This document shows positions 29,743 to 59,361 of a stretch of 64,000 nucleotides of DNA, piece by piece (within the stretch, counting starts at the first letter, position 1; the number at the start of each line of letters is the position of its first letter). Under the pieces are notes generated by a model. That model was not told the origin of the DNA. It ran no database searches and saw only the letters and a list, made by a program, of their open reading frames with translations. The translations under genes and the position numbers were made by a program. The stretch is from Strigamia acuminata (lineage: Eukaryota; Arthropoda; Chilopoda; Geophilomorpha; Linotaeniidae): contig OX442314.1 in NCBI GenBank assembly GCA_949358305.1, positions 33,227,608-33,291,607 of the forward strand. The letters run 5' to 3'.

Positions 29743-32700
29743 ATGTCAAAGGCCAAGTCAATTCCCAATGGGGACTGGGCAGAAAACAGGCGACCAGGGG
29801 TGAAATATGCAAATTTAGAGCGCGATTATATCAACTTATTGCAGAATTCTCATGAATTGTCTGGATGGGGTGATTAAAACCAGGCCGAATTAAAGATAAA
29901 TATCAAAAATAAGGAAAATAATATAAAATAAAATAATAAATTTAGATTTGGGAAAAATAAAATGATTTAAAGAAATTAGAGCAATTTCTCAATAAAATTG
30001 GGGAAAATTCAAAGGAAAGGCGCAAAATGCGCTCAAAATTTTGAAAATTAATACTGTCTAAAGTCAGGACCGTGACATTCCCCCCCACCTAGATGTTTAT
30101 TATATGGTTTTTATATAATCAACATCTAAATGGAGTTAACAAACATGATTGATAAAAATTTGAACATATAAATAAATAAAAATAATGAATCAACAATATT
30201 AATCTCATAATAAACATATAACACAGGTAGGGATTTATTTGGACAGACGCAACAGGCGCACAACTTGGCGCAATTACAGACAAGAACAAACAAATACAAA
30301 CAAATGGGTTTAGGAGAGGAATATTGTAAAAAATCGTTTGATTAAAAATTAACAGAATCAATAGACGTTTAGGCGCTAACTACGACTAAATTCTAAATAA
30401 AATAATAAAATTTGTTAAATTAGTTGATAACGCTTGAAATTAACAATGGTATTCTCTGTTATGACTAGAAAATAATTTAAGATTAATTAACAATGCCTAT
30501 GGGTGGCAAAATTTCTATAAAAATGTAAATTATTAGCAAATAAAAATATTGATTAGGCGCTGATTTGGCGTCAATTATCACAATATAAGGATAGCAAAAT
30601 TTCAATGATCACAAATGGTTAATAAAAATGATTAGCAAAAATGATTAGTAAAATATAAATATCAAAAAATAAAAAGTTCGCAAACGAATATTATCTTCTT
30701 TCGTAGGCGTTTGAGTTTTCACGGAACTTTACGTAAAAAATCTTCATCGAGGCGCATAACAATCACATTTTAAACAATTACAACACTTATCGTTTGTATC
30801 ACAATTATCACAATAAAGTCCACACACAACAGTTCGTATATGGGTTTTTAGAAGGCGCAAAGTCACTGTAAGTTCTGTTGTTTAGAAGTCGCGTAACACT
30901 TCCGGCTAATTCGGTTCACTCGGTAAAGGAAATGTCCAACATAATATTGTTTAATGATGGACAACAATTTTTCGCCCGCGCTGTGGTCGAGTTGCAAGTC
31001 CGAAAAGATGATCGTTTCGAAAAGGCGCGTCAGAACACTCCAATCCACGACCAATTCGATTTTAGGCTCCCATGGCAACGAATAGAATATTTCGTCCACC
31101 GGAATAATCTCCTCCATGATCGCAAGGGCGCAAGTTGGCTCTACGAGACGTTTCTCCTTAGGTTTCGGCTCGACCGGTTCGCGCAAACTCTCACGTGTGA
31201 CAACTTCGCCTGGATCGTCATCTTTTTCCTTTGGCGGTGTCAAAATCATTTTTGGCATCCTCGACATCAATGGCGATCGACGTCCACCCCTCGCACCGCC
31301 TCGTCCAACTCCAGGAAGTCTGAAAGGCTCGTCGACCTGAATTACCTCAATTTTGTTGTGTTCTTGGGCCGCCAGGAATGCTTTGTGGTTCTCTTCGTCG
31401 CCCGTTGACTCGCGAAGCGACTCGACATCCGACATTGAGTAATCCACATCCGATGATAACTCCGAGGCGAGTATTCCTGTGTCCGCCACGATTACGGGAT
31501 CGTATCTGAATGAATATTTGGTTCGGGGATCTGCTAATTTCGGATTTTCGGCAATTGCGTCCTCAAATTGTTGCACCAATTTTTCAGGCGCCAACTCGAT
31601 GAGAATCTTTTCTGAAAAGTTCTTAATTTCATCCTCCGTCATGATCAATTCTGGATCCAGTGGTGGTTTGGCGGGCGCATTTTTCTCGTCCTCAAGTCTC
31701 TGGGCCTCCCTGAGCGCGTCGGCCTCTCGAAATCGCTTGACGGCGTCGCGACGACTCTGATGCATTTGGGTGATGATTTCTTTTAAATTAAAGTGCACGG
31801 CGTGCACAATAAGGTGATGCACCGCGTGCTCGTCTCCGGTACAGTCCTTTGTCATTTTCGCTTCAATTTCCTTCGCGATGTTCCCGAGGCGTCCGAAAAT
31901 CGTTCCGACGACCGTCTTGAAGTCCGAGGTGCTGACGTTGAAATCCAAATTAATCGACATCTTAAAAAGTTCGCTCCATCCCTCCGATCTCAGGTTGATT
32001 CGTCCTTGACCCCTGTTCTCCATGGGGTACAGTATCTCAAGCTCGTGGCGCCGGAATATTTCGGACATCTGGGTGAAAATACGGTCTGGGCGCATTGTAC
32101 ATCCATTTCGGTCGAATCCCTGGAGATATCGTGGCTTTAGAGATGCGCATCCCTCCGACGACGTCGATCCGCTCGAGACCGCTGAAATGGCCTTAGCAAT
32201 TGGATTCGAAACCTTGTTTTCCAATTTCTTGACGTCGTGGACCCTCGCGCACTCCTCCGCATCTCTCGCAATTTCGGCAGCGATATTCGCGATGGATGAA
32301 GATGGTGTAAAATTCAACAACGCTTTGATATCTCGGTCAACCTGTGGGGAAAAATCAGCTTTAATTAGTTTTTTGTTAAAATCAGCAACCGTGTCCATTT
32401 GTGTGTTTGAAGTTGCAATTTTGGAGTACGTAATCGGCACCGATGTCGCAGCAATTGAAGTCATCATCTTGGGCGTCACATTCGATTGAGTCACAGTGGT
32501 GACATCGACAGGTCGGGCAGCTTGGCTCGATTCGGACGTCTCAATCGAAGACGATTTGTTTTTTACAACGTAAAAATAAGGAATGACGATTGGTGCAGCA
32601 GTGGTCACCGTTGTAACGTTGGTTGACTTCGCCTCCGCCGCCGTTACACTCGATTCCGTTTTGATGATCGGGGTCGACATCGTGTTGATATTATTAATTT

Positions 32701-32807
32701 TTTCTCTCTCTCTTCTGTTCTCTTCATTCTTCTTTACCTTTTTAATTACTTGATCGCCCAACGAAAGTTCTTCTGTTGGTTTAACGATGAGCATGGCGGC
32801 AGGCGCT
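29636..32807 (-). repeat. 3172-bp tandem duplication, right unit
   Basis: The second unit of the duplication (see 26466-29635). It contains a partial LTR at its left end, and its right end runs smoothly into the unique N-terminal part of ORF3. Confidence 0.9.
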
Positions 32808-33661
32808 CCTCCAACCGCTCCATTTTCCTCGACTATAATCGAAGACGTGTTCGATGTTGGTCCGGATCGTCCCGTCACGAAGTGAGTGTCTCGATTCGCC
32901 TCCGCTCCAATCCTTTTCGTCACTTTCTGCGTATATTCCTTCAAACGGTGCGTGCTCCGCTCCTCGTACGTATGTCGTGGACGCAGATTTGAATGCTGAA
33001 ATGGCAAGTCGGCCGCAACTCTATCCGGCTCCGAATACGCTCTTTTCGCATCCGCGACCACATTAGGCGCCGTCAAACATAGTTCTATACCCGATTCCAC
33101 ATCGTAGGTCTTTCCCTCAGGTGTCACAAATTGGTCCGGAAGTTCGGCAGGCTGCTCGCCGGCAATTATGTAGGCTCCCTCTGGATATTCCCAGGTTAAA
33201 GGTCGGATTCCCTTTTCTCTTGCCAATTGCTTTATGCGTGCCAAATATGACGCGTGCGCATGACGAAAACGAACGATGGCGTTTGCACTGCCGAATGGAA
33301 TCCTTGGCGGCGGAAAATCCACTCCAGCCAACGATGTTTTGTCTATCGACTCATAACCAAGTACATACGCGAACATAAGGCGCATCCATTTCCGGAATTT
33401 GCAACGACGCAAGTCACCGCCGCCCCGACACGCTCGGCATTCTCGTGGCGCCCGCAGTTGGTATATTTCAAATCCGGTCCCGCTACAAACTGGACATAGT
33501 TCATAGTTTGGAAAACTTTGGTCGTTTGGGTGGTCCGGATGCCAGCGTGGCACCAGTCCTTCGCCCGACGCTTCGATTGGTGGTATCGGCAGGTACTTTG
33601 GATAACCTTTTTGCGTTGGTTTTGGAATCGTAATTGTTACTTTTGGATCGTAGGACGCCAT
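30863..33661 (-). CDS. Element 3 accessory ORF3 with CxxC pairs
   Basis: A 932-residue protein of unknown function in the position where errantiviruses have env. The N-terminal domain (about 1-250) has two CxxC knuckles, CPVCSGTG (Cys56, Cys59) and CRACRGGG (Cys75, Cys78), plus Cys87. This resembles a half DnaJ-type zinc finger, but there is no J domain. A Thr/Ser-rich linker follows (about 290-420), then a helical region with many charged residues (about 430-680), an RG-rich patch (GRGGARGGRR) and a short conserved-looking C-terminus. No signal peptide or membrane span is visible, so it is not an envelope protein. The start is the first ATG. A strong 3' splice site (TTTCTTTTAG, AG at 33685-33684) lies 22 bases upstream, suggesting a spliced subgenomic mRNA. 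Confidence 0.75.
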   Translation of the reverse strand: MASYDPKVTITIPKPTQKGYPKYLPIPPIEASGEGLVPRWHPDHPNDQSFPNYELCPVCSGTGFEIYQLRAPRECRACRGGGDLRRCKFRKWMRLMFAYVLGYESIDKTSLAGVDFPPPRIPFGSANAIVRFRHAHASYLARIKQLAREKGIRPLTWEYPEGAYIIAGEQPAELPDQFVTPEGKTYDVESGIELCLTAPNVVADAKRAYSEPDRVAADLPFQHSNLRPRHTYEERSTHRLKEYTQKVTKRIGAEANRDTHFVTGRSGPTSNTSSIIVEENGAVGGAPAAMLIVKPTEELSLGDQVIKKVKKNEENRREREKINNINTMSTPIIKTESSVTAAEAKSTNVTTVTTAAPIVIPYFYVVKNKSSSIETSESSQAARPVDVTTVTQSNVTPKMMTSIAATSVPITYSKIATSNTQMDTVADFNKKLIKADFSPQVDRDIKALLNFTPSSSIANIAAEIARDAEECARVHDVKKLENKVSNPIAKAISAVSSGSTSSEGCASLKPRYLQGFDRNGCTMRPDRIFTQMSEIFRRHELEILYPMENRGQGRINLRSEGWSELFKMSINLDFNVSTSDFKTVVGTIFGRLGNIAKEIEAKMTKDCTGDEHAVHHLIVHAVHFNLKEIITQMHQSRRDAVKRFREADALREAQRLEDEKNAPAKPPLDPELIMTEDEIKNFSEKILIELAPEKLVQQFEDAIAENPKLADPRTKYSFRYDPVIVADTGILASELSSDVDYSMSDVESLRESTGDEENHKAFLAAQEHNKIEVIQVDEPFRLPGVGRGGARGGRRSPLMSRMPKMILTPPKEKDDDPGEVVTRESLREPVEPKPKEKRLVEPTCALAIMEEIIPVDEIFYSLPWEPKIELVVDWSVLTRLFETIIFSDLQLDHSAGEKLLSIIKQYYVGHFLYRVNRISRKCYATSKQQNLQ

Positions 33662-34193
33662 AATAAATTATTGCAAAGTGAAACTAAAAGAAATGGAAAT
33701 CCTTCAGGAAAGAAAAAGTTATTTTAGCGAAAATATTCAATTAAAATTAAATTGTTGTGAGATAGAAAGTACTTACGGGTGATAGACGCACAATTTCTAA
33801 CAATATTTATCCAATTTAAGTGATTGTTAAGTTTTTTGAGGCGCGACTATTCAGACGCAAATTAAAATGTGGCTAAGTCGTGCCCTCACATGTCTTTAAT
33901 ACACGCGGTCTCGCTACGGGGTCGCCTCGTCACAAAATATGACACGGACCTCTCGCGTGAACGAGATTTAATCACGCACTTCGAAGAAGCATGAGTTTGG
34001 ACTTAGTAAATTTTTGTATCATCATTTTAAATTGATGAATTTCGAATTCCTAAACTAATCTTTACTTACTATTTTCAGCGTCTATCCTCCGTAAATATTT
34101 GGTTTAAAGCAGGGAAAATTATAAACACAAGAAGGAAAGAAGGTTGGGTAAAGTAAAGAAAGAAATAAAATTATAAAATGAAAAGAAATTAAG
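33662..34193 (-). other. Element 3 pol-ORF3 spacer
   Basis: About 530 non-coding bases between the end of pol and ORF3. It holds the candidate splice acceptor for ORF3 at 33684-33685. Nothing else is recognised. Confidence 0.6.
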
Positions 34194-35717
34194 TTATTTT
34201 ATCGAAAATGAAGCGATGATGGTTTCAATTTCCGATGTAAACGCAGCAACATGTTTTTCGATCATTGTTGCGTCCGTTTGGTCTAAATCATCATCATTAT
34301 TGAACCAATGGCGCAATTCCACGACGTTGTACGGCAGCATTCGACGACCATCCTTGTCCATAAGAATGACAGTATTGGGTCCAGTTAATTTATGGATTAC
34401 GTAAACGCCTTCCGTCCTCTGTCGAAGTCCTGCAGCAAACTGTCGGTCCGCCGATGACAATTGTCGATTTTTAATAGACACAAAATCGCCTGGTTTGAAA
34501 TCGTGTGGTCTTCTTTTTCGATCGAACCAACGTTTATGTCTAATTTGAGCTTTTTGTAAATTTGCAGTGGCATTATTTCGCAATTCTCTCATCAATTCAT
34601 GCGTCTCTCGCGCTCGTGCTGGCGGCAGCGGCTGTCCATCGTCGGTGTCCGAATCGAAATCACCTGGATAACGCGCCTCTTGTCCCGTCACCATTTGATA
34701 AGGAGAATATTGAAGCGAAGCCTGATATGCTGAGTTGATTGCTAGCACAAAATATCCAATGTGAACGTCCCAGCGCACATGCTCTTCAATATATGCCAAA
34801 ATGCAGTTTTTTAATGCTTGGTTTAATCTCTCGGCCAGGTTCCCCTGTGGATGATAAACAGCCGTATAGCGATTGATGGCGCCAAAACTCTGACATGCAG
34901 CCTGGAATTCCATTGATCGGAAAGCTGGTGCATTGTCACTTATAATGACTTTTGGGCATGCCCATCGCTGAATAAATCCTTGCAATTGTTTAATTGTTGT
35001 TTTCCAGTCAGATGTCTCAGTCAATCTCACATCCAACCATCGACTGGCGGCATCCACAATTACTAATGCGTAACAATGTCCTCCAATCGATCGGGGTTTT
35101 TTACCATAATAATCGATATAAATTGTGTGAAACAAATGTCGTGGTTTGGCCATGATCATTGGTCCATATGGAAGGCGATTTAACGGCTTAGCTCGTTGAC
35201 ACGGTTCACATTTTTGAATCCAAAGCAAAACGTCTTCCTTCATTTTAGGCCAATAAACTCGGGCCCGGAGTCGATGAAGTGTTTTTTCAACTCCTAAATG
35301 TCCGCAGCTCGGCGGGTAATGCAGAGCTTTGAAATATTGTTCGCGTAACATTAGGGGCAAATAGATCTGTCTTCTGCGGCGAATTTTATTTATGTCAATC
35401 GGTGGATAACGACATAACATTCCCTTGTAAATAGCAAAATCTACGGCACGATACTTGATACGCGCTGCTTGTACTTGGTCGTTGGGCAAATGTCCTTGAT
35501 CAAGATATTCGATTAATTCGGCGCTCCACGTGTCTTCGTGTTGTCGACGAATTATTTCGTTAATAGTTGGTATCAGACGAAATGGTTGGTGGTCTTGCGG
35601 CGCCTCATGGAGTCGCTCGGCCTCATCCTCTTCTTCGTCTTGTTGTTCATCAGCAACAGGGCGTCTTGTCGCATTTCTTTGAAATTGTGATCGATCTTGA
35701 CGCACCTGCTGTGGCAT
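34194..35717 (-). CDS. pol: Element 3 integrase segment (pol 3' end)
   Basis: This holds the true 3' end of pol, cut off from the rest of pol by the 1316-bp duplication. It has an acidic linker, an integrase HHCC zinc finger (YPPSCGHLGV to CEPCQRAKP), catalytic Asp in IDYYGKK, Asp in SDNAPAFRS, Glu in GNLAERLNQ, then the GDFVSIK domain and the C-terminal GPNTVILMDKDG tail with an Asp-rich stretch. The first in-frame ATG here (35717) is only an internal Met. The frame is intact to the stop at 34194, which marks the natural pol end. Confidence 0.82.
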   Translation of the reverse strand: MPQQVRQDRSQFQRNATRRPVADEQQDEEEDEAERLHEAPQDHQPFRLIPTINEIIRRQHEDTWSAELIEYLDQGHLPNDQVQAARIKYRAVDFAIYKGMLCRYPPIDINKIRRRRQIYLPLMLREQYFKALHYPPSCGHLGVEKTLHRLRARVYWPKMKEDVLLWIQKCEPCQRAKPLNRLPYGPMIMAKPRHLFHTIYIDYYGKKPRSIGGHCYALVIVDAASRWLDVRLTETSDWKTTIKQLQGFIQRWACPKVIISDNAPAFRSMEFQAACQSFGAINRYTAVYHPQGNLAERLNQALKNCILAYIEEHVRWDVHIGYFVLAINSAYQASLQYSPYQMVTGQEARYPGDFDSDTDDGQPLPPARARETHELMRELRNNATANLQKAQIRHKRWFDRKRRPHDFKPGDFVSIKNRQLSSADRQFAAGLRQRTEGVYVIHKLTGPNTVILMDKDGRRMLPYNVVELRHWFNNDDDLDQTDATMIEKHVAAFTSEIETIIASFSIK

Positions 35718-35731
35718 AAATCCTGCACGCC
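34416..35731 (-). repeat. 1316-bp tandem duplication in pol, left unit
   Basis: Same sequence as 35732-37047 except one visible substitution (GGTCTTC versus GGTTTTC, Arg/Lys in the product). It covers the linker and integrase. 1316 is not a multiple of three, so the joint breaks the pol frame. Confidence 0.9.
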
Positions 35732-38700
35732 CCTCTGTCGAAGTCCTGCAGCAAACTGTCGGTCCGCCGATGACAATTGTCGATTTTTAATAGACACAAA
35801 ATCGCCTGGTTTGAAATCGTGTGGTTTTCTTTTTCGATCGAACCAACGTTTATGTCTAATTTGAGCTTTTTGTAAATTTGCAGTGGCATTATTTCGCAAT
35901 TCTCTCATCAATTCATGCGTCTCTCGCGCTCGTGCTGGCGGCAGCGGCTGTCCATCGTCGGTGTCCGAATCGAAATCACCTGGATAACGCGCCTCTTGTC
36001 CCGTCACCATTTGATAAGGAGAATATTGAAGCGAAGCCTGATATGCTGAGTTGATTGCTAGCACAAAATATCCAATGTGAACGTCCCAGCGCACATGCTC
36101 TTCAATATATGCCAAAATGCAGTTTTTTAATGCTTGGTTTAATCTCTCGGCCAGGTTCCCCTGTGGATGATAAACAGCCGTATAGCGATTGATGGCGCCA
36201 AAACTCTGACATGCAGCCTGGAATTCCATTGATCGGAAAGCTGGTGCATTGTCACTTATAATGACTTTTGGGCATGCCCATCGCTGAATAAATCCTTGCA
36301 ATTGTTTAATTGTTGTTTTCCAGTCAGATGTCTCAGTCAATCTCACATCCAACCATCGACTGGCGGCATCCACAATTACTAATGCGTAACAATGTCCTCC
36401 AATCGATCGGGGTTTTTTACCATAATAATCGATATAAATTGTGTGAAACAAATGTCGTGGTTTGGCCATGATCATTGGTCCATATGGAAGGCGATTTAAC
36501 GGCTTAGCTCGTTGACACGGTTCACATTTTTGAATCCAAAGCAAAACGTCTTCCTTCATTTTAGGCCAATAAACTCGGGCCCGGAGTCGATGAAGTGTTT
36601 TTTCAACTCCTAAATGTCCGCAGCTCGGCGGGTAATGCAGAGCTTTGAAATATTGTTCGCGTAACATTAGGGGCAAATAGATCTGTCTTCTGCGGCGAAT
36701 TTTATTTATGTCAATCGGTGGATAACGACATAACATTCCCTTGTAAATAGCAAAATCTACGGCACGATACTTGATACGCGCTGCTTGTACTTGGTCGTTG
36801 GGCAAATGTCCTTGATCAAGATATTCGATTAATTCGGCGCTCCACGTGTCTTCGTGTTGTCGACGAATTATTTCGTTAATAGTTGGTATCAGACGAAATG
36901 GTTGGTGGTCTTGCGGCGCCTCATGGAGTCGCTCGGCCTCATCCTCTTCTTCGTCTTGTTGTTCATCAGCAACAGGGCGTCTTGTCGCATTTCTTTGAAA
37001 TTGTGATCGATCTTGACGCACCTGCTGTGGCATAAATCCTGCACGCCCCATCCATGCTGGTTGATAAGTTGTCGAATCGTCCGACGAATCCGAATCTGGA
37101 CCTCCATATCCGTCAAAATTCGGTCGCACAGCTCCAGATGGTCCTGCAGGTGGACTCAACACATCAGGAGTTGGAAACGATGCAGTTGGCACATTTGGTG
37201 ATGGCAGAGGCGACATTAAAGGTGGTAATGGTGCAACAGCTCCAGGAGGCGTCGAAACTTGTTTCTGTTGACGCGCTCTGGCTCGAGTTAATACCTGATA
37301 ATTTGGTGGCGGTCTCTTCTTGTTTTTAGAACCTTTTGGCCTACCCAATTTTGGTTTAATTTGCTGTTGTCGCCTTTGCGCTTTTGTCATCACAGCTACG
37401 TTATTTCGTTGCTGCGCCGCAGCCAATCCAACTCCAATAATGTTGATTATTGGTAATTTTGGCCAATCATTTGGGTCGTCAAAATAGGCGATGTAGCATG
37501 TTTCATCAACGAGAGGCGAGTCGTCTGCATCCAATGGTTCCGATGGTTCCACAGGCGCACGGCTAAGGGCATCCGCAACACGATTCTGTGCTCCTGAGCA
37601 GTAAAGAAATGTAAATTTATACTCACTGAGGGACAAAACCCATCGTGCCAGGCGTCCTTTTGGTTCTCGCTGCTGGAAAAGCCACTTTAACGACAAATGA
37701 TCGCTTTCTAAATAAAAATTCATCATCTCAAGATATACACGAAATCTTTTGACCGCCCAAACCGCCGCTAAGCATTCAATCTCGGTGACGCTGTAATTCT
37801 TTTCAGCAGAATTCAATGCACGTGATGCAAAGGCGATTGGTGTTCGTTCACCTTGATCATTTAGTTGCATAAGTGCAGCGCCCAAACCTGAATAGCTGGC
37901 GTCTGTTTGTAGTATGTATGGCTTGGTCCAATCCGGGAATCTTCGATGTAGAGTTGGTTCAGCCAATCCTCTCTTGAGTGAATTAAATGCCTCTTGGTGT
38001 TGAATCGTCCAATTCCACTCAGAATCTTTTTTGAGTAAGGGTTGAAACACCTCGCATGTTTTTGAATAATTTGGGAAAAATGACTGATAATAACCAATCA
38101 TTCCTTTGAATCTTTGTAATTCTTTGATGTTGGTAGGCGCCGGAAAATATTGAATTGCCGTCACCTTATTTGGATTTGGTTTAATGTGTCCAGCCTCCAC
38201 AATATGTCCCAAAACTTCGAGTGATGTTCTGCACAACTCCGTCTTGTTGGCGTTCATTGTGAATCCCGCTTCATCCAAGGCTTGAAGAATTATTTTGAGA
38301 TGTTGCACATGCTCCTCGAAAGTCTTGCTGAAAATTATGACGTCATCGAGATAAACAAACACGAACTTGTAAAGATATTTCGACAAAGTTTTGTTCATGG
38401 CTCTCTGCAGAGTTGCTGGGCCATTAATGGGTCCAAATGGCATTCTCACATATTCGAAAAGTCCTCTGTGCGTAATAAATGCGAGAAATCTCTCGTCACC
38501 TGGACGCACTCCAATCTGGTGGAAAGCTTCTCGTCCATCTATGATCGAAAACCAATTTGATCCTCCTAAATAAGAAAATATATTATCGATGTCGGGTAGT
38601 GGGTAGACATCGGGTAAAGTTTGAGCATTCATCGGTCTAAAATCCATAGCTGTACGCCAATCTCCAGTTTTCTTTGGAACAACAACAGGCGCCACCGCAC

Positions 38701-40318
38701 AATCACTTTTTGATCGACGAATAATGCCTTGTTTTAGTTTTTGGTCCAAATAAGCATCAATTACCATCTTTTTTGCTGGGTTAACGGGTCTTACAGGCAC
38801 ATGAATTGGTCTAAAGTCCGGTTTTAAATTTACTTCAAACTGAGTGTTGTTACATAATCCAACCTCCTCACGAAATACTTTCGAAATTGGTCGAAGAGTC
38901 TGAATTAATAAACGAATTTGGGGTACCGTCAATGATGACCACAGCTGGTCGTAAATCCAATCCAGTTGTGTTGGATCACTGCTTGGTTGATATTGTAGTA
39001 CATTAACATCCAGAGGCGGCTCCGAAATCGTCGAATGATCGTGTACTCTGGCCATGAGCGCATTTTCATCCACACGACGCAAAAGCTGTCTTCCCTGCGT
39101 GTTAAGTTGTTTTATTGTTGGTGACAATTCATAAAGGCGTCTCCGCTGTCGTCTTGCACGTCTGCGTTGGCTAAGCGTCGAAAACAATGATGAATTGAAT
39201 TTTCTTGATTTTTTAATGGAATCCTTCCTCTTTGGTGACCATATCAATGACCATTGATCTCGTGTACGATTCCGAATCCTCTTGATTTGGTGTTGAGCAT
39301 CATCATTTGGATATTCGAAAATCTCTTGCGACAAAGGTCGATGTTCTAGAAGAATACAATTAATGTTGTTAATTAATACCTTGGGTACATCTTTGGCGCT
39401 GTCCTTTGTATCATCGGGTTTCCTGATAGGAAATAAAAGAACAGATTCTGACTTGTTAGCTTGTTCTAAAGTCATGAATTGTCTTCGTTCTTGTGATCCC
39501 TTCAGATACCACTGGCACAATTCAAAGTCTGTGCACAGACCAACCGCTCTGCAGAAATCTCTTCCCAGCAGAAGGTCCTCTGATGTTTTGGGTATAATTA
39601 AGCAAATGAAAGAAATAACGGCCAAGGGTGCGCGCACTGACAGTTTAACAGATCCCTTAACTGGAATTTTGTCATCGGCCGCTGTACGCACTGTTTCGTG
39701 AAGTTCGAGCAATTCCAAACCCATATTGGCTTTAAGTTTGTTGAATAATGACTCTGACATTACACATGTCTGAGCGCCTGAATCCAAAAGTGCGACAAAA
39801 CTCACGTTAGCCCATGTTATTTTGATATATGGTGCTTCTCTGTTGAAGCGATCAGTCTTCGTAATTTCGATTCTCGGCTCTTCGGATTTTTGCAACTCCT
39901 CGGGCGACAAAAGAACGAAGTTTGTTTGCAACGTCTCACTCTGCGTTGTCAACGAAGTTGGTTTTTTGGGGGTTTCCTTGGCTTTCACAGACGAAAGTTG
40001 CGCTGATTTTGTTGGTTGTGGTGTTACGACACCGGGTATTTTTGATTTTGATTTACTTGAATCTGATTTGATTGATGTAGTTAATTTAATGTCAGTAGAC
40101 GGTGTTAATGATTTGTTGTTGTCTTCTCGAACAGCAGATGGCGCCTCTGATGTCGGAGTAGACGGTTTTGTACTTCCATCGATGTCTGGTGATTCTTCAG
40201 TCTTCTTCTCAGTAGAGTCCTTGATGTTTATATCCGACCCGCTCTCTGGACTCATGCTTTGAGCAGGCCGCTTGCGTTTCCCGACTGACGACTCCACTCC
40301 TTGCCACAAACGGGGCAC
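35573..40318 (-). CDS. pol: Element 3 pol: protease, RT, RNase H, integrase
   Basis: Pol of element 3, in the -1 frame relative to gag with a 67-base overlap. It starts effectively at the slippery site 40276-40282; no ATG is needed. Order: Ser/Lys-rich linker, retropepsin (LLDSGAQTCVM, LLLGRDF), RT (VYPLPDIDNIFSYLGGSNWF, catalytic YLDD), RNase H (QTDASYSGLGAAL, TEIECLA, RVADALSRAP), a Pro-rich linker, then integrase with the HHCC finger and D-D-E residues. After the GLRQR of the first integrase copy it crosses the duplication joint at about 35731, goes out of frame and stops about 50 codons later. As assembled, therefore, pol lacks its natural C-terminus. Confidence 0.88.
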   Translation of the reverse strand: MPRLWQGVESSVGKRKRPAQSMSPESGSDINIKDSTEKKTEESPDIDGSTKPSTPTSEAPSAVREDNNKSLTPSTDIKLTTSIKSDSSKSKSKIPGVVTPQPTKSAQLSSVKAKETPKKPTSLTTQSETLQTNFVLLSPEELQKSEEPRIEITKTDRFNREAPYIKITWANVSFVALLDSGAQTCVMSESLFNKLKANMGLELLELHETVRTAADDKIPVKGSVKLSVRAPLAVISFICLIIPKTSEDLLLGRDFCRAVGLCTDFELCQWYLKGSQERRQFMTLEQANKSESVLLFPIRKPDDTKDSAKDVPKVLINNINCILLEHRPLSQEIFEYPNDDAQHQIKRIRNRTRDQWSLIWSPKRKDSIKKSRKFNSSLFSTLSQRRRARRQRRRLYELSPTIKQLNTQGRQLLRRVDENALMARVHDHSTISEPPLDVNVLQYQPSSDPTQLDWIYDQLWSSLTVPQIRLLIQTLRPISKVFREEVGLCNNTQFEVNLKPDFRPIHVPVRPVNPAKKMVIDAYLDQKLKQGIIRRSKSDCAVAPVVVPKKTGDWRTAMDFRPMNAQTLPDVYPLPDIDNIFSYLGGSNWFSIIDGREAFHQIGVRPGDERFLAFITHRGLFEYVRMPFGPINGPATLQRAMNKTLSKYLYKFVFVYLDDVIIFSKTFEEHVQHLKIILQALDEAGFTMNANKTELCRTSLEVLGHIVEAGHIKPNPNKVTAIQYFPAPTNIKELQRFKGMIGYYQSFFPNYSKTCEVFQPLLKKDSEWNWTIQHQEAFNSLKRGLAEPTLHRRFPDWTKPYILQTDASYSGLGAALMQLNDQGERTPIAFASRALNSAEKNYSVTEIECLAAVWAVKRFRVYLEMMNFYLESDHLSLKWLFQQREPKGRLARWVLSLSEYKFTFLYCSGAQNRVADALSRAPVEPSEPLDADDSPLVDETCYIAYFDDPNDWPKLPIINIIGVGLAAAQQRNNVAVMTKAQRRQQQIKPKLGRPKGSKNKKRPPPNYQVLTRARARQQKQVSTPPGAVAPLPPLMSPLPSPNVPTASFPTPDVLSPPAGPSGAVRPNFDGYGGPDSDSSDDSTTYQPAWMGRAGFMPQQVRQDRSQFQRNATRRPVADEQQDEEEDEAERLHEAPQDHQPFRLIPTINEIIRRQHEDTWSAELIEYLDQGHLPNDQVQAARIKYRAVDFAIYKGMLCRYPPIDINKIRRRRQIYLPLMLREQYFKALHYPPSCGHLGVEKTLHRLRARVYWPKMKEDVLLWIQKCEPCQRAKPLNRLPYGPMIMAKPRHLFHTIYIDYYGKKPRSIGGHCYALVIVDAASRWLDVRLTETSDWKTTIKQLQGFIQRWACPKVIISDNAPAFRSMEFQAACQSFGAINRYTAVYHPQGNLAERLNQALKNCILAYIEEHVRWDVHIGYFVLAINSAYQASLQYSPYQMVTGQEARYPGDFDSDTDDGQPLPPARARETHELMRELRNNATANLQKAQIRHKRWFDRKRKPHDFKPGDFVSIKNRQLSSADRQFAAGLRQRGVQDLCHSRCVKIDHNFKEMRQDALLLMNNKTKKRMRPSDSMRRRKTTNHFV
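35732..37047 (-). repeat. 1316-bp tandem duplication in pol, right unit
   Basis: The second unit of the pol duplication (see 34416-35731). This one is in frame with RT and RNase H. Confidence 0.9.
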
Positions 40319-42168
40319 ACAGGCCTCCAGGATTGCCTGTCAGACATGAACCATTTGTCCGTTGGTGTTTTTCTCCACATAGCATTCTTCGGGAGCTTTG
40401 GCTCTGAAGGCGCTTCTTTAGCGGCTGGAAAAATGACAACGTCCTTGGGACATATGTGCTGTGTATCCGTTCTAGGTGTTGGCGCAGTAGTCGCAGTCAT
40501 GGCGTGGACATCAGACTTTTGTGCTGCCGCTGATGCAGACTCCTTTGGCGGGTCCCTATTTGATTCCTCGCTGTTGGGATCTTCTGGATCAAGCGCGCAC
40601 GCCGACATGTCCTCGAGCAATGCTGTAAATACTTTGTTGAATCTTGAAAAACGACCAGACCTGGACGAAGTAGATTGTTGATTTAACTTCTCCTCCTCTG
40701 TTCTGGTACGTGTGGCAGGACCCACTCCTGCGGGTAAAGGCATCTCCTGGTCCGAAACTCCGCACTGCTTGTACTCAAAAGTCCGCAACGAATCCAACTG
40801 AAGGCGATTATCGACATCGTTGCCCATTTTGACTGCGTCGTCGATCGTCCTGATGCACCAAGAGCGCATTAATTGTACGACTTGAGTTTGCATCATGCCC
40901 TGAACTCGTTCCCACTGCAAGCCCTTGTCCTTGTATCCAGCAATGTTTAAATAATGAATCATCTCGCTGAGGAACGACATAGTTGATTCCCCTGGCTTTT
41001 GTTTGCGCTGAGACAACTTAACATTAGCTAAAGCTGAATTAATGGAAAATACCTGCCTGAAAACCAATTCAAAGTCCTCCCAATTGTTTGGTTTTGGAGT
41101 CAGAGCCATCCACCAACGTTGCGCTCTATTTCGAAGCGCGAGAACCACGTATACTTTCAAATATATTCCTTCCGGTGCTCCCATGGTAAACATGTGCGCA
41201 TATAGCTTACCTAGGAACAAGTCCACTGTGTCGAAAGTAGCTTCATCCGGGTCGAAGTATGGAATTTTTTCAACTTTAAGTTTATACCTTCCAACCTGAG
41301 CGGCTTGACGCTGATCTTCCGACTCCAACGAGAGTTGAGATCTCGTGTGAGGCAGCTGTCTTGAGGCGCTGAGTGGTATGCCTTGACTACCTCCTTGAGC
41401 GGAATCCGGGTTAGGATCTGGTGGTGGGTCCCGTGGAACATTGGAAGTCGTGTCTCCCTGTCGTGAATGTTGTTGGCGTCGTCTCGGAGAATAAGAGCCA
41501 GTGCGTCGTGGTCCTGACGCACGTCCAGTATCTCCAAAAGAAAAGTCGGCTCCCCGAGCGCCCTCTCGACCACGACGTGTGGCCCCCGAACCTGCTTCAG
41601 GTGCTGGTGGTTCAGGCTGAGTTCGCTCGTTGTGCGAATGGATAAATTCCTCCACTCTGTCGTTCAGCTCGCGCCTAATTTGCCTCATCGATTCGAGCAA
41701 CTCCTGGCGAAGTTCGTGCTGTAACTCCCTTCTATCCTCTCGTAATACTCTCATCAATGCTTCCATCGTCAGTGCAGGTGGATTCCTTCGATGTTGCTGT
41801 GGTTCCGGTTGCATAAATGCAGGTTGGTAAGGAGGTGGCGGTCCTCGTTGAATGTCTTCTCGAACCGCTCGCATCCCGTCCACAATTTGTCTTCTTTCCA
41901 TGAGTGAGTCCTGCAAATGGCGTCTATTTTCCTCCCATTGATCCCGTGCCGCAGCCGCTTCCCGTTCATGTTGGAGTTGATCCGCTTCCATTTGAGCGTA
42001 TGTCCTCCAAGGATTGGAAAATGGTACGTCTGTGGATATTGGTTGTACTAGTAGATCCTGCTGCTGGTCCGGCTCATGTGTTGGTGAGTCTGGAAGTGGC
42101 AAAGTATGCGCTTGTTCGGCTTCTACGTCCGAAACACTGGATTGCGACAAAGCGTCGCGTGAAGCCAT
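40252..42168 (-). CDS. gag: Element 3 gag
   Basis: Gag of 638 residues. It begins at the first ATG after the PBS. Residues 60-180 are Gln/Arg/Glu-rich and probably coiled coil. A Pro/Arg/Gly-rich stretch follows, then a capsid-like region (about 290-440, with WWMALTPKPNNWEDFELVF). The C-terminus has one CPVC pair but no full CCHC knuckle. The slippery heptamer lies eight codons before the stop, so Gag-Pol starts inside the last gag codons. Confidence 0.82.
   Translation of the reverse strand: MASRDALSQSSVSDVEAEQAHTLPLPDSPTHEPDQQQDLLVQPISTDVPFSNPWRTYAQMEADQLQHEREAAAARDQWEENRRHLQDSLMERRQIVDGMRAVREDIQRGPPPPYQPAFMQPEPQQHRRNPPALTMEALMRVLREDRRELQHELRQELLESMRQIRRELNDRVEEFIHSHNERTQPEPPAPEAGSGATRRGREGARGADFSFGDTGRASGPRRTGSYSPRRRQQHSRQGDTTSNVPRDPPPDPNPDSAQGGSQGIPLSASRQLPHTRSQLSLESEDQRQAAQVGRYKLKVEKIPYFDPDEATFDTVDLFLGKLYAHMFTMGAPEGIYLKVYVVLALRNRAQRWWMALTPKPNNWEDFELVFRQVFSINSALANVKLSQRKQKPGESTMSFLSEMIHYLNIAGYKDKGLQWERVQGMMQTQVVQLMRSWCIRTIDDAVKMGNDVDNRLQLDSLRTFEYKQCGVSDQEMPLPAGVGPATRTRTEEEKLNQQSTSSRSGRFSRFNKVFTALLEDMSACALDPEDPNSEESNRDPPKESASAAAQKSDVHAMTATTAPTPRTDTQHICPKDVVIFPAAKEAPSEPKLPKNAMWRKTPTDKWFMSDRQSWRPVCPVCGKEWSRQSGNASGLLKA
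40276..40282 (-). promoter_or_regulatory. -1 frameshift site GGGAAAC, element 3
   Basis: Gag codons TCG GGA AAC GCA contain G-GGA-AAC. A -1 slip gives GGG AAA CGC, which is the pol frame as it continues downstream. The heptamer is identical to that of element 1 although the two gag proteins are not closely alike. Confidence 0.75.
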
Positions 42169-42295
42169 GTTGAAATAATAATATGTGTGCCGGCAAAAAT
42201 AAGTAATTAATTAAATAAATATAACGACCTATACTTGCGTAGTCTTCACTGAAGAAAATGGTGGTTTGTGTTCTCTTAGAACACGTTTCGAGTTG

Positions 42296-42314
42296 AATCC
42301 TGTCTAGCTCGCCA
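42296..42314 (-). promoter_or_regulatory. Element 3 primer-binding site
   Basis: TGGCGAGCTAGACAGGATTC on the - strand, four bases inside the 5' LTR. The complement continues as GTTGAATCCTGTC then TAGCTCGCCA, which looks like a tRNA T-loop, T-stem, acceptor and CCA. The tRNA identity is not assigned. Confidence 0.7.
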
Positions 42315-42318
42315 AGAT

Positions 42319-43360
42319 TGTCACGTCGTAGTCGACTTTTTAACAATGGTTTCGGAAATTTAAGAATTTCCAGGGATTGTAATAACCAGAAAATTTAGGT
42401 TCGCAGGCGCTGCAACTCTTAAAACTTTGCCGGGGGTGGTAGCTAGGTTAAGACAGCGTCTATTCGTGAAATCTGTATTTTATGGGTGCAGGATTCAATT
42501 CGGGCGCCGTACAAAATGGCGAACGTTGATACTCGAATTTTAAGACCAAATATCGCTCTTCACTAGGGAAAATGTCGTCATATGCTAGGCGTACTTACGA
42601 AGAGTATGTTTCTTCTCCTGAACACGCGCAAACGTTGGGTGAACGCGCAAACAGGTACCAAACCGCAGACAACGTCGTCGAGCCGTCGATAATGAAATGA
42701 ATACGCAATTGAGACGAGTATGAGTTCAAAATGTCTAGGCTGAGGAGGAAGTCACAGTCGTGGCATAAAATGTATTGACGAATTAAGACCGTCGAATACG
42801 CCTTTTTTCCAGCAATTCGTACGCAAATAATGGGCAAAATAATAAATGTTGTGGTTAGTTAGACTAACATGAGAATTCGGGCTGCATAATGACCGTATGC
42901 GTTGAGACGCAACATAATCGCACTTGGAAACCTTCCAGTTTGAGACAGAAGATGTTGACTAGTCGAAGGCGAAAATTATTCTCTCTGTCAAAAATGTCTT
43001 GACAGAACAAGTCACCTCTGATCACATGTCAAAGGCCAAGTCAATTCCCAATGGGGACTGGGCAGAAAACAGGCGACCAGGGGTGAAATATGCAAATTTA
43101 GAGCGCGATTATATCAACTTATTGCAGAATTCTCATGAATTGTCTGGATGGGGTGATTAAAACCAGGCCGAATTAAAGATAAATATCAAAAATAAGGAAA
43201 ATAATATAAAATAAAATAATAAATTTAGATTTGGGAAAAATAAAATGATTTAAAGAAATTAGAGCAATTTCTCAATAAAATTGGGGAAAATTCAAAGGAA
43301 AGGCGCAAAATGCGCTCAAAATTTTGAAAATTAATACTGTCTAAAGTCAGGACCGTGACC
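42319..43360 (-). repeat. Element 3 5' LTR
   Basis: 1042 bp, with no difference that I could see from 25864-26905 except the last base. Followed by the target duplication ACCT. Confidence 0.92.
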
Positions 43361-43364
43361 ACCT

Positions 43365-43892: not shown

Positions 43893-44715
43893 AATCTGTC
43901 ATGTTGTCTCACTTGTCAGGATACTGCAAGTGAACGCTTGACGGAAAATGACTGGACAGACTGTTGGTGCATTTAAAGATTCTTTGTTGTTTTCAAAACA
44001 GAATATAAAAATACCTAACTATAAATGTGTGCGAGGCAATTTCGGTTTTGGACTTGGCGTACATGGCAGTTAAAAACTGTAAATTAGAAGACTGGGTTGA
44101 ACTCAAAACGCACGTGGCTTTAATCCTTGCTAAAACAGTTGCACTGGACATTCCAGCAGAAAGAATTAAACAAAAATCTTTACAAAAAAAATTATATCAA
44201 AATTACAAATGTTATGTTAGGGCAGTTCAGTGATGGGCACTGGACCCTAAACGTACCGTTTGTTTAATTGCCATGCTGCAAAAGTACTGTATGGATATGG
44301 ATTGCATTGTTGCAGTGAGTACACCTATAAATATATGACATTTACAACGTATTTTATATTTCTTCAAGCCGGTCCAAGCCCTGTCTGGGGCATCCAAGCC
44401 CCACTCAATCATACTCATTTTGGTCTTTGGCAAAACTGCTTGTACGAATCAGTCTGCTTGGATTAAATGCGCCGTAGAAAGTGCGTAAGAGAAAATGAAA
44501 TAAATCTTTAAAATATCTTAACAAATCCATTAAATAAAAATGTGTTATTTATGCTATGGAAATTAGGGAAAGGACACAATTCGGAATTTACGGTTTCCCT
44601 GTAATAATTATTTCTTTTCTGCATCCATTGCATTGATTTTGGCTTCATTGTTCGCCTGCGAATTGTCCTTGAGAGTTGAGATCACGGGCGTGTTGGTTCA
44701 ATAATTCATTGATGG
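43893..44715 (+). repeat. Dispersed repeat B, copy 2
   Basis: A diverged copy of 2737-3575. A 68-codon open frame (44027-44233, with VLDLAYMAVKNCKLEDWVEL) is broken by a stop in copy 1. The frame may be left from a protein of the parent element, but I do not recognise it. Confidence 0.6.
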
Positions 44716-44887
44716 CTGTCTGTTTCTTGTTTCGGCCGGAAATTCGTCTCGTTGAACGTCAGCTTCTGCATAAACCGCTACCTAAAAACGAAAAAACAAA
44801 AAAAATCAATCAAAGTGAATTTTTTATTTTTTTATTTTTTACCGTTTCGGCCGGACACCCGTTTTGAACGGCAGCTTCTTCATAAAC

Positions 44888-45113: not shown

Positions 45114-45121
45114 ATTCATGT

Positions 45122-46600: not shown

Positions 46601-46614
46601 AATCGTTATTAGTG

Positions 46615-48365
46615 TGTGACGATTCTACTTTTGGGCTAATTTATTAGTCCTTTTGAGATAGATAATTCGGTTTATACAAGACGTTGCTAAGTTTAGCAAC
46701 AACCTAACCGAGATAAGCTACGGAAACCTTCACAAACATGAATACGTGATCGAATAGAAATAACTTACAGTTTTAGTGTGACATAACATATTTATTACTA
46801 AATATTGATGGTTAACAAAGATGGGTTCTTGACGCGTGTAAACGGGCGGCATCAACTGGTTGAGGATCCGGGCGAAGCCAGAGGGATACGGCTGACTTGC
46901 GGCATCGTCACAAATATCGCTACGGAGACGTATTTGGTCCGCAGCTCGAATATCTAAATATGCGAAGAGTCCTTCGCATTAATCGGAATATTCGGCAGAA
47001 TATTCCATGTTCCAAATGAATAAAAGTAAAGTGATTAAAGTAATATAACAAATGAATTGTTATATAAATAATAATTGGGCGGGGACCGTCACGACAATTG
47101 AGAGAACGTCGCGGGAGTTGTTGAGACTCCATCCGCCAGCATGCCTTACGACGACAAGATCTCGTGATCAGGCGCCGAGTATTTAATTGTACGCTTTAAT
47201 TCGCTATCGGTGGTACCAACCACCAGGTAAACATTTCTATGGACTTACCGGGTTTAAAAGATATTGCCAATACAGGATTACCAATGCCCGAGTAATTTGT
47301 TTAACACGATATATTTATATATCGTTCACGGGTTACTAACCCGGAGGGTACGATGGGGCGGGGACCGTCACGACGGTCGAGAGAACCATCGCGGGAGGAT
47401 TTGACTCCTCCATCCGCCAGCATGCCTTACGATGACGGGATCAGCGGATCGAGCACCGGGTAAAATATTATTTGGCCACTGCCATTGGATTACCATTATC
47501 CAGGTAGTTGTTTTATCGCAACATCTTTAGATATTACTCACGGGCTACCAACCCGGCGTGTCACCTGTATATTAAGCCTTTACCGACTTTTAACGAGCGG
47601 AAGGACCAATCGTAGAAAGACGGGAACCTGCGTGGGCTGTTTACAACAACCATCCTGCAGCGGACTGTGGCCAGTTAGCTGAGGGACCTACTTTCATTTA
47701 GCAAGGTCGTACTGTATACGACCGTTATATTAAGCCACCGTACGAAGTCCTACTGTCCCGTAGAACAGCTGGCTAACGTTACGGGGCCATTTCATGCGAA
47801 TGCATGTCTATTACCGGAGTTAGCCTTCCCGAAAAGGCCCTACAACAGCAATAACAAACTAGTAATGAATACTAACTGTGGAGAGCTGAGGTGGCCTGAT
47901 GTGTCGATAGAGAATAATGAAATCAAACGATAACAATTCAACTACAGACAATATACAAGTTCAGTTATCAAAAATCAAGCCTTAGGGAAGTGAAAAACTG
48001 ATGCTTATATAGTTCTGTAGAACTACTAGATTGGCGGCAGCCAATCAGCGTACGAATCGGCGGATTCGTGGGTCACTAGTCCGGACCTAATATATGACTA
48101 TGTCCAGATGGGCCCAGTTGGGGTCCGGAAGGGTCCGATTGGTTCCCTTCGACAGGTAAGTAAAGTGGACATTGATTCGATAGAATCAACATCATCAAGT
48201 AATTAATACTTAATTTATATCGAATAAAATAGTTATATTTTATTCACCGTGTCTAAATAATTATTTATCACACTTTTTAGTTTTAACCGAGTTTGAAATA
48301 CGCGCGTTGATTAAACAGCGCCATCTATGGTGAACATTGACAACTATTGATTTGTAATCATCACA
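46615..48365 (-). repeat. Element 4 3' LTR
   Basis: 1751 bp, repeated at 59362-61112. It contains an internal direct repeat: about 80 bp at 47087-47167 recur, diverged, at 47356-47437 (both start GGGGACCGTCACGAC and include CCGCCAGCATGCCTTACGA). A perfect palindromic stem GTTGCTAA/TTAGCAAC lies near 46684-46702. The inner side is next to the polypurine tract at 48366-48376 (ACCGGGGGATG on the - strand). Confidence 0.93.
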
Positions 48366-48376
48366 CATCCCCCGGT

Positions 48377-49112
48377 GACAAACATAGAGTTTACTAACTC
48401 TCGATTGTCATTCTTAATGGATAAGAATGTTCACCTAATTCTATCGAATTAATCCACTTGGTAAGTATTTTATTAATTTAATCACGTTATTTCTTTCAGA
48501 AACTTCGTCACCCGATTAGACTAATCGGCTTCTCTGTACCGCGCAACTCCCGGTTGCTAAGCGACGGAAATGAACTCGTCCGAACATGGATACATGTTCG
48601 AGAAAATACAAATTTCGATAGAAATTTTATTTCTCCGTCAAATAAACTTATTTATAGCTTATTAATCAACAAGATAATCAATAAAAATAAATTTATGCAA
48701 AACTTTATTTATCGAAAATCTAAACTACTAATTTTTATTACGACTGTCATAAAAATTATCGAATTTCAACTTGAAATTCTTTAATACTTCGATCAAAGCA
48801 AAATAAACACAAAATTTCCACAAGTAATTATGAAATTGCAAATAAATCAAACAAACATATATTAATATGATTAGTTCAAAATAACAACCAAATTGAATTC
48901 GGAAAACCAAAACAAATTAAATTGAATCCAATTTTAAATCAAACTATATTCTTATGAATATTTGAATAATTAGTTCAAGATCTTGAAACCAAACAAACAC
49001 AACACTCATGAGAATATTTCTTAATTGCAAAAACACAACAAAACACTTGGAGTATTTTTAGTCATAAAAATCTCCACTCGGAAAAAATAAGCGAATGTTA
49101 ACTTTGTCCCTT
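48377..49112 (-). other. Element 4 3' untranslated region
   Basis: AT-rich. Interval 48505-48620 holds strong inverted repeats (CCGATTAG with CTAATCGG; GGTTGCTAAGCGAC; CGAACATG with CATGTTCG). The same series of motifs, diverged, occurs in the leader at 58395-58500. Confidence 0.6.
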
Positions 49113-50633
49113 TTACTCCTTCTTTTCGACGTCAGTCGAATCTTTTTCTTCCTTTTTCTCGACTTCAGCTGAAGTCAGAAAATCCGATTCTTCAGTCGCC
49201 TCTGTCGAGACGGCAGAAAATACAGCTTCTTCCGGCGCTTCGATTTCATCCGGACTCGGAGGCGGAAACGGCATGTCGTCGAGAAGCTCAGCCACGAAAT
49301 CAACGACTGAAAGCAGCTCCTCGGCGTCCTCGAACTGCGCGTCGTCCGAAGTCTCAGACTTAGACGCTGGAGGGGCGCTAGACACGTCGGTTACGGCCGC
49401 TGGAGGATCCTCCACGGGTTTAGACGACGTTTCAACAGCCTGTTGAAGCTTACGAGCTCGCCCTCGTGCCAAGATGTTGGTTCGTTGAACCTTGGCAATT
49501 TCTCTCGCTCGGTCGAGCGTCAGACAGCCTCGCCCTCGCGACATCGCTCTTGGTCGAACGAATTCCTCTTGCACCTCGCTTCCGGCGCTCTCGATGGCCT
49601 GGACAGTTTCAGTTGAAACTTCGGAGTCCTCGGACGGCGGCGGTGACTGTCGAAGGAGTTCGACTCTTACGCCGGCGTTGGCTTCAGCACGGGTCCAGGT
49701 GAGGAAGCGCGGGTCGATGTAAACCGCTTCGCCGCGACTATTCAAGAAAAGTCGGCACTTTGGGCAGTGAGCCCAACATCGCTTTTCGTTCGGCTTAATG
49801 CCTTTCACCACGTGGGGCTGAACCTCCTTGCGCCACGGCTCCGAACGCGGTCGCGTTTTCCTTCCACGGCAGTTTGGACAACGCATAAGCGAAGAACCTG
49901 CGGATGCACCGCAGCACCACCCACAGCCGACGCAAAATGGGCATATCGTCTCCGTGGCTTGGTCCGTCACGATGTTATCGTGAGGTATTCCGGCTGCCAT
50001 GTCTCGTTCGCACTGCTCCTTGCGCAGGCGGGCTTTCTCATCCTTCTTTTTCGCCTTATTGGCCGCTCGGTACTCGCGGTTGCGAGAAACAGGCTCCGAA
50101 TAACGCAGAGCGCCCGGTGGCGGCTCGTTCCATCCATACTCTGATGCCGAGGATTCAGCACCGGCAGGGAGGTGCACAGCAGACGTTGATTGTCCCGCCA
50201 CAGTCGGTGCGGTCGCATTCGATGTATTGGCAACGGTAGGTGCCACGTTTGCAGTTGGCGGCCGAAATTCTGGCGAATGCGGGGCCAACGGGACGTTGAT
50301 AACGTTCGCAGGCGGAAATGCTACCTGGGCCAACGGGGCCAATTGCGCCGACTCATAAATAGTTGGCTGTGCAGATGTGGATGGGGCCTGCATCAACGCA
50401 TTTAAGTCGAGCGGAAGTCCGTCCGGATGGACGCTCAGCCAATTAAGCGTTGCGAGTTGCAACGGCGTCAGGGCGTACATCGAGGCGGGCGCCGTCGGTA
50501 TCGGTTGGGCCCTCATGTAAGCACGTTCCGCTGAACGGCGTTGCTCGTCACTAGACGAGGTGGACGAGCTGGACGAGCTTTCATGACGGTGTCGTCGATG
50601 ACTCCGTTTTGAGCGGTGTTTACCACTTCCCAT
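49113..50633 (-). CDS. Element 4 accessory ORF3 with CxxC pairs
   Basis: A 506-residue protein of unknown function between pol and the 3' LTR. It has a basic Arg/His/Ser-rich N-terminus (a likely nuclear or RNA-binding tail), an Ala/Pro/Thr-rich region (about 45-180), a basic helix, then a cysteine cluster CPFCVGCGWCCG (about 231-241), RCPNCRGRK (252, 255) and CWAHCPKC (286-293). An acidic C-terminal half ends in Lys/Glu repeats. The CxxCxG pairs resemble those of the ORF3 of element 3, though the proteins otherwise do not align by eye. There is no signal peptide or membrane span. The start is the ATG at 50633. It is preceded directly by TTTGCGTCTGCAG, an excellent 3' splice site, so a spliced mRNA is likely. 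Confidence 0.75.
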   Translation of the reverse strand: MGSGKHRSKRSHRRHRHESSSSSSTSSSDEQRRSAERAYMRAQPIPTAPASMYALTPLQLATLNWLSVHPDGLPLDLNALMQAPSTSAQPTIYESAQLAPLAQVAFPPANVINVPLAPHSPEFRPPTANVAPTVANTSNATAPTVAGQSTSAVHLPAGAESSASEYGWNEPPPGALRYSEPVSRNREYRAANKAKKKDEKARLRKEQCERDMAAGIPHDNIVTDQATETICPFCVGCGWCCGASAGSSLMRCPNCRGRKTRPRSEPWRKEVQPHVVKGIKPNEKRCWAHCPKCRLFLNSRGEAVYIDPRFLTWTRAEANAGVRVELLRQSPPPSEDSEVSTETVQAIESAGSEVQEEFVRPRAMSRGRGCLTLDRAREIAKVQRTNILARGRARKLQQAVETSSKPVEDPPAAVTDVSSAPPASKSETSDDAQFEDAEELLSVVDFVAELLDDMPFPPPSPDEIEAPEEAVFSAVSTEATEESDFLTSAEVEKKEEKDSTDVEKKE

Positions 50634-59359: not shown

Positions 59360-59361
59360 TT

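Follow-up and report, generated by a model that had tools for sequence, protein, structure and literature searches.

What kind of protein is encoded by a large third open reading frame (ORF) that occupies the envelope (env) position of a Gypsy retrotransposon and has none of the features of an envelope? The question is raised by a 64-kb window of the genome of the geophilomorph Strigamia acuminata (64,000 nucleotides, contig OX442314.1, positions 33,227,608 to 33,291,607), in which two long terminal repeat (LTR) elements, here called elements 3 and 4, both carry such an ORF (ORF3) with paired CxxC motifs. We find that several Gypsy lineages carry ORF3 as a genuine accessory gene, which is not an envelope, and that in both elements a spliced intron lies between pol and ORF3. 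The intron is a new observation that goes beyond the original prediction, an earlier reading made from the sequence of the window alone. The features on which the argument turns are as follows.

30863..33661, minus strand: element 3 ORF3, 932 amino acids (aa), intact, between pol and the 3' LTR
33416..33496, minus strand: putative zinc motif of element 3, CPVCSGTG..CRACRGGG, ORF3 residues 56-82
33684..33776, minus strand: intron before element 3 ORF3, 93 bp, GTAAGT..TTTTAG, from conserved sites and intron-less copies
49113..50633, minus strand: element 4 ORF3, 506 aa from ATG, intact, between pol and the 3' LTR
49755..49943, minus strand: cysteine cluster of element 4, CPFCVGCGWCCG..CPNCRGRK..CPKC, ORF3 residues 231-293
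50634..51241, minus strand: intron before element 4 ORF3, 608 bp, GTAAGT..CTGCAG, the next base being that of the ATG, from conserved sites and an intron-less copy

A third gene under purifying selection

Both ORF3s were found intact between pol and the 3' LTR with the cysteine motifs that the original prediction had quoted. A six-frame scan of the window finds the pattern C..C.G.G-x(4-22)-C..C.G exactly twice, with one instance per ORF3, and none of 40 mononucleotide-shuffled versions contains it. The TTG listed as the start of the element 4 ORF (50645) lies upstream of the splice acceptor. The element 3 ORF3 of the window has an end unlike that of most copies: among the 28 of 30 copies that were located by their exact start, 24 encode 954 aa, one 957 and one 958, while one stops at 561 and the window copy has 932. 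The highest 19-residue hydropathy is 1.35 in element 3 ORF3 and 1.14 in element 4 ORF3, so that no signal peptide or membrane span of the retroviral envelope type is apparent, which bears out the earlier view that neither is an envelope.

The spacing CxxCxGxG..CxxCxG is that of the central zinc domain of DnaJ (PF00684) and of anti-TRAP (PF15777). Element 3 ORF3 scores 14.3 bits against PF00684 (matched relatives 13.2-16.7; curated cut-off 32.7), and element 4 ORF3 scores 13.3 bits against PF15777 (matched relatives 13.6-19.9; curated cut-off 32). Both thus fall below the cut-offs; ORF3 has half of the DnaJ motif, and Pfam reported no J domain at E 1 in the ORF3s of elements 3 and 4 or their relatives. 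Single-sequence structure prediction of the two proteins was uninformative, with predicted local distance difference test (pLDDT) scores of 39.5 and 41.5.

We screened the host genome (237.5 Mb, 157 contigs) for copies. For element 4 ORF3, 755 first-look candidates yielded 84 scored places with 94-100% identity; for element 3 ORF3, 496 candidates yielded 51 match rows with 88-100% identity. Judged from these identities, both ORF3s are members of young families. Internal stops are present in 7 of the 51 element 3 rows and 5 of the 84 element 4 rows. One contig (C13, 10.3 Mb, 4.4% of the assembly) holds 27 of the 84 element 4 places.

The ratio of nonsynonymous to synonymous substitution rates (dN/dS) was computed from the best-scoring copies, a choice biased toward intact ones (30 of the 51 element 3 rows and 28 of the 84 element 4 places). 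Pooled values are 0.093 for element 3 ORF3 and 0.101 for element 4 ORF3, well below 1, as the original prediction had required of an accessory protein. In the four 60-codon windows containing the first two CxxC pairs dN/dS is 0.02-0.05, and the minimum of each ORF3 is among these; it rises to 0.14-0.23 in low-complexity stretches. The other two sense frames and two of the antisense frames gave 1.4-4.8, and the antisense frame that shares third positions gave 0.145 and 0.163, an expected echo. The pol C-termini have dN/dS of 0.087 in element 3 (29 of the same copies) and 0.196 in element 4 (8 of the same copies); ORF3 is therefore under roughly pol-level selection. By these measures ORF3 is a genuine protein under strong purifying selection.

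An intron between pol and ORF3

The splice sites of element 3 (donor at -115, acceptor ending at -23 relative to ORF3) are kept in 30 of 30 copies, and those of element 4 (donor at -608, acceptor at -1) in 8 of 8. Since 53% of the upstream 6-mers in element 3 and 48% in element 4 are also kept in at least 95% of copies, this conservation alone says little about splicing. The element 4 donor is fixed and the bases preceding it vary by substitutions and indels; its exact acceptor-start word is present in 21 of 28 copies.

Splicing was instead tested by searching the genome for the predicted exon-exon junctions, with reversed patterns as control. The element 3 junction was found at two genomic places, with 0 and 1 mismatch. 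That of element 4 was found at one place with 2 mismatches, where it perfectly matches the variant of the pre-donor exon carried by three of the eight copies. The reversed patterns gave 0 matches in the host genome. Two of the three junction places were read, and both are colinear with pol and the gap as far as the donor and then jump to the acceptor. Precisely 93 and 608 bp have been removed, and no base is shared between the two ends. Both introns were therefore spliced in pol-carrying RNA that was later reverse-transcribed. Intron-containing sites within two mismatches number 61 for element 3 (donor pattern) and 156 for element 4 (acceptor pattern), against two and one intron-less places, so intron loss is rare. 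As nearly all copies at the sites reachable by these patterns keep the intron, unspliced RNA is the usual template of reverse transcription. Both intron-less copies that were read have an in-frame stop upstream of the ORF3 ATG; in the spliced form, as reconstructed from genomic sequence, ORF3 therefore starts at its own ATG.

An internal promoter for ORF3 was considered and dropped: the upstream TATA-like words are unevenly kept (one in 2 of 8 copies), and both intron-less copies read run into pol. One element 4 copy (L047) is without 50637-50818, with the same acceptor joined from a CAG/GCGAGT site, so that either a GC-AG splice or a deletion from CAG to CAG may account for it. In one copy of element 3 ORF3 (L016:1-1236, element sense), unrelated sequence replaces pol from ~267 bases upstream of ORF3, and the intron is kept. 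In the gap between pol and ORF3 of element 3 (33662-34193, 30 copies), nucleotide diversity (pi) is about 0.03-0.05, below that of ORF3 third positions (0.08-0.20) and of the stretch after ORF3 (up to 0.16); for this reason the gap may hold cis signals.

Carrier elements and ORF3-like families

The two carriers and their remaining genes are laid out as follows.

25864..43360, minus strand: element 3, Gypsy LTR element, LTRs 25864-26904 and 42319-43359, gag and pol domains
40252..42168, minus strand: element 3 gag, from Pfam domain search
35573..40318, minus strand: element 3 pol, with a second ORF at 34194-35717; integrase end tandemly duplicated
46615..61112, minus strand: element 4, Gypsy LTR element, LTRs 46615-48365 and 59362-61112
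55880..58036, minus strand: element 4 gag, CCHC knuckle present (Pfam)
51687..55814, minus strand: element 4 pol, from Pfam domains

The LTRs of each pair (1042 bp in element 3, 1751 bp in element 4) show zero differences, and likely 4-bp target duplications, read from the sequence, flank the elements (ACCT and AGTG, respectively). In both, pol encodes protease, reverse transcriptase (RT), RNase H, and integrase (IN), and the nearest solved relative is Ty3. With LTRs, gag, this order of domains, and a Ty3-like RT, elements 3 and 4 belong to Ty3/Gypsy (Metaviridae). Within it they are clearly different from each other, as had been claimed: the gags give no BLASTP match at E 1, identity is 36% over 505 residues of RT and 25% in IN, the LTRs differ, and the primer-binding site (PBS) regions after the 5' LTR are unlike. 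Element 3 RT is equally close to that of element 1 of the window (38% identity). By these comparisons elements 3 and 4 are distinct Ty3/Gypsy lineages. Elements 1 and 2 have no ORF of at least 250 aa beyond gag and pol. Pfam reported no CCHC knuckle at E 1 in the gag of element 3. Element 3 is tandemly duplicated twice: 26463-29636 equals 29635-32808 (3174 bp, 99.97%), covering LTR, 3' untranslated region (UTR), and ORF3 C-terminus, and 34416-35733 equals 35732-37049 (1318 bp, 99.92%), covering integrase. The ORF at 27691-29742 is therefore the duplicated ORF3 C-terminus. These duplications may be real or an assembly artefact.

A search of the host genome with PF00684 gave 12 places, comprising three over the cut-off, which are host DnaJ genes, one further locus (L062), and eight others. 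At two loci (L063 and L064), integrase ends 66-73% identical to that of element 3 precede an ORF3 that shares 36-39% identity with element 3 ORF3 in its N-terminal part; the ORF3 frame of L063 is split in two. Used as a query against the genome, the L063 ORF3 had 119 matches (117 scored, from 317 candidates), with identity steps near 99, 80, 72, 66, 43, and 36%. In six ORF3s of this element 3 type (group I), CPxCSGxG...CxACxGxGxL is invariant. With PF15777, 150 of 170 candidate places were scored, and none exceeded the cut-off. Four of them were read (L073 to L076), and other entries include known group I loci and one host DnaJ gene. L075 and L076 are 35-36% identical to element 4 ORF3 (group II), and upstream of L076 lies an integrase 57% identical to that of element 4. 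L074 is a group I member. L073 (group III) has CPICNGFG...CMNCGG and stands behind a Gypsy integrase 32% identical to that of element 3 and to that of element 4; 65 of the 150 rows have its profile span, and L073 is the one that was read. Together with the relatives of both elements, this means that ORF3s of this kind accompany integrases of at least three lineages. A fourth set of ORFs (group IV; L068:1420-2580, L069:583-1722, and L070:610-1722) has the same motif and C2H2-like cysteines. No element structure was seen around them in the 3.1 kb examined, and a gag-like fragment lies near one of the three. For the pair L068 and L069 dN/dS is 0.52; for L069 and L070, which are nearly identical, it is 2.1. 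Group IV could be a host gene derived from ORF3, or the reverse. Protein, viral-contig, and GTDB searches returned no relative from outside the host, which is weak evidence of absence, as GTDB is a prokaryotic collection and the host was the sole animal genome; the GTDB scan gave a lone 31-residue motif match in a bacterial contig, which was not counted as a relative.

Whether the motifs descend from one protein was addressed by profile comparison. Groups I and II align over 47 columns with a score of 37.1. Of 50 group II shuffles in which only the Cys columns stay in place, 0 attain this score; when the Gly columns stay as well, 3 of 50 attain it. With Cys masked the score is 20.4. Integrase zinc-domain controls score 10.7-17.5. 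Group I scores 30.9 against group III, 26.8 against group IV, and 36.4 against the host DnaJ profile, much the same as against group II. Groups II, III, and IV score 35.0-40.5 against each other and 23.9-28.2 against DnaJ. Outside the CxxC patch, the ORF3s of elements 3 and 4 gave no convincing alignment. These scores suggest that groups II to IV are probably related and leave the kinship of group I with them undecided. The earlier idea of a shared accessory protein thus survives as an accessory gene present in several Gypsy families, but descent from one protein is not shown, given the equal DnaJ score and the 3 of 50 shuffles.

Some further features of element 4 and the window may be recorded here. 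Perfect short hairpins (stem of at least 7, loop of 3-9) occur at 6.3-8.0 per kb in the LTR, 3' UTR, pol-ORF3 gap, and leader of element 4. Shuffled sequences have 0.3-1.2 per kb, and elements 1-3 together with the flanks have 0-2.9 per kb; the internal part of element 3 has no such packing. In eight copies the stems show one-sided changes at 1.7%, versus 4.6% in slid controls, and G-U outnumbers A-C by 23 to 11 (p 0.058). The purine-rich ACCGGGGGA-like word by the 3' LTR of element 4 (48366-48379) recurs at about 51607-51620, after pol, and at about 55868-55880, between gag and pol; these could possibly be internal polypurine tracts. At 62268-63935, about 1.1 kb from the end of element 4, lies a single-exon gene for an mRNA capping enzyme (phosphatase and guanylyltransferase), whose best match among solved structures is the mammalian enzymes. 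A 0.85-kb repeat (2740-3573 and 43890-44712, 89% identical) lies outside elements 3 and 4.

A possible role in nuclear handling of unspliced RNA

Intron-containing RNA is normally retained by cells, and a retroelement whose template is spliced RNA loses its intron. With unspliced RNA as their usual template, elements 3 and 4 must therefore export and package intron-containing RNA. The Rev-like export proteins of retroviruses are arginine-rich, are not known to carry a zinc motif, and resemble ORF3 in neither sequence nor size. They would answer the same problem, that of unspliced genomic RNA with splice sites (PMC10309623). A closer parallel is CERV, the non-env third ORF of the Caenorhabditis elegans Gypsy element Cer1, which like ORF3 lies between pol and the 3' LTR, comes from a spliced mRNA, and has about 500 aa and a candidate C4 cysteine loop (PMC10309623). 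CERV needs its cysteines to gather on genomic RNA in the nucleus and to bring about export, and a stop mutation leaves no genomic RNA in the cytoplasm (PMC10309623). The spliced origin of ORF3 is judged from intron-less genomic copies and not from RNA itself. Exons 1-3 of CERV are in the gag frame, whereas ORF3 begins at its own ATG, and the CERV cysteines that were mutated are C193, C195, and C200, where ORF3 has CxxCxGxG pairs (PMC10309623). Because ORF3 has no exons in common with gag, its cysteines are spaced differently, and the likeness is one of description, we do not claim that ORF3 is a member of the CERV family.

The reading that we tentatively prefer, at slightly under even chances, is that ORF3 acts in a CERV- or Rev-like way and lets intron-containing genomic RNA be exported or packaged. 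It is proposed because ORF3 stands where CERV does, follows an intron, is most constrained around its zinc-like motif, and lacks membrane features; position, motif, intron, and absence of a membrane span are common to the ORF3s of both distinct elements. Genomic RNA with its intron would be held in the nucleus and need an exit route; the zinc motif would bind this RNA or a host adaptor there, and ORF3 would license export or packaging. An intron-less copy, having lost the ORF3 acceptor, would probably express ORF3 poorly, which might explain why such copies are rare. Several points weigh against this proposal, which is drawn from genomic sequence and analogy. Only in elements 3 and 4 is the intron established: the stretch upstream of ORF3 gave no clear donor-acceptor pair at eight loci from other groups, and donor-like words were seen in 4 of the 8. 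The intron may be kept for other reasons, for example because only its acceptor is needed for the ORF3 mRNA. Element 4 ORF3 matches none of the simple basic nuclear localization signal patterns scanned, and a scan of the element 3 gap for structured RNA found no window beyond z -3. Exons in common with gag are a feature of CERV that ORF3 does not have. Zinc binding and fold of ORF3 are putative.

Among the other roles, we regard as unlikely, although the least so, that ORF3 coats particle RNA as a nucleic-acid chaperone or second nucleocapsid and aids packaging or reverse transcription, the intron serving expression only. The gag of element 3, without a reported CCHC knuckle, might be complemented by another zinc protein, and the zinc region is the most constrained part of ORF3; yet element 4 has both the knuckle and ORF3, and a spliced route would yield less protein than a particle component requires. 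Two further ideas seem less likely still, both to about the same degree. ORF3 might counter host silencing by PIWI-interacting RNA (piRNA), small interfering RNA (siRNA), or chromatin in the manner of viral suppressors, as its size, charged low-complexity flanks, and many-copy families would allow, but suppressors in an arms race often evolve fast, whereas ORF3 has a dN/dS of about 0.1, and nothing in our data points to silencing. It might also be a DnaJ-type domain captured from a host co-chaperone, with Hsp70 recruitment or chaperone activity retained. The element 3 profile matches host DnaJ as well as it matches element 4, but no J domain is reported, one CxxCxGxG pair stands against two in DnaJ, and groups II to IV score better with each other than with DnaJ. 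An unusual envelope or cell-to-cell transfer protein, like sORF2 of the Drosophila MDG1 elements, is very improbable: ORF3 does occupy the env position, but it has no hydrophobic span, and sORF2, whose ORF precedes gag, is a short transmembrane protein (PMC11952523). The original prediction had offered an RNA chaperone, a silencing suppressor, or a nuclear targeting factor; of these, the splicing evidence favors a nuclear RNA role, still unproven, and none of the evidence leads to silencing.

Parts of this picture have precedents. In the plant LTR elements Ogre and EVADE, introns serve subgenomic RNAs, as may be compared with elements 3 and 4; these are plant elements, and the passages on them mention no zinc third ORF behind the intron (PMC12786077). 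MDG1 sORF1 and sORF2 are, like ORF3, non-env accessory ORFs under purifying selection, and sORF1 is subnuclear; unlike ORF3, they have about 110 and 70 aa and lie upstream of gag, sORF2 is transmembrane, and the full-length MDG1 RNA is described without splicing (PMC11952523, preprint). Among the matches listed in open-licence full-text literature, none reports a CxxCxGxG third ORF in an LTR element. The earlier statement that no described Gypsy lineage has such a protein must be qualified in view of CERV, a third ORF that is spliced, is not an env, contains a cysteine loop, and has a function that is known (PMC10309623).

The nuclear exit of unspliced RNA from intron-containing retroelements is understood in few systems. 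With distinct Gypsy lineages of a single genome carrying an intact third ORF under selection downstream of a real intron, and with intron-less copies as a natural proof of splicing, this problem can be put to the test in systems other than retroviruses and C. elegans. ORF3 would also turn the "unknown ORF in the env position" of LTR elements (PMC10309623) into a concrete class. It is conceivable, though we think it doubtful, that a large part of this animal's Gypsy diversity goes back to an ancestor with a spliced, zinc-dependent regulator of unspliced RNA of the Rev or CERV kind, inherited with pol and diversified into groups I to III. If so, Rev-type control would be old and common in Metaviridae and not limited to complex retroviruses and Cer1.

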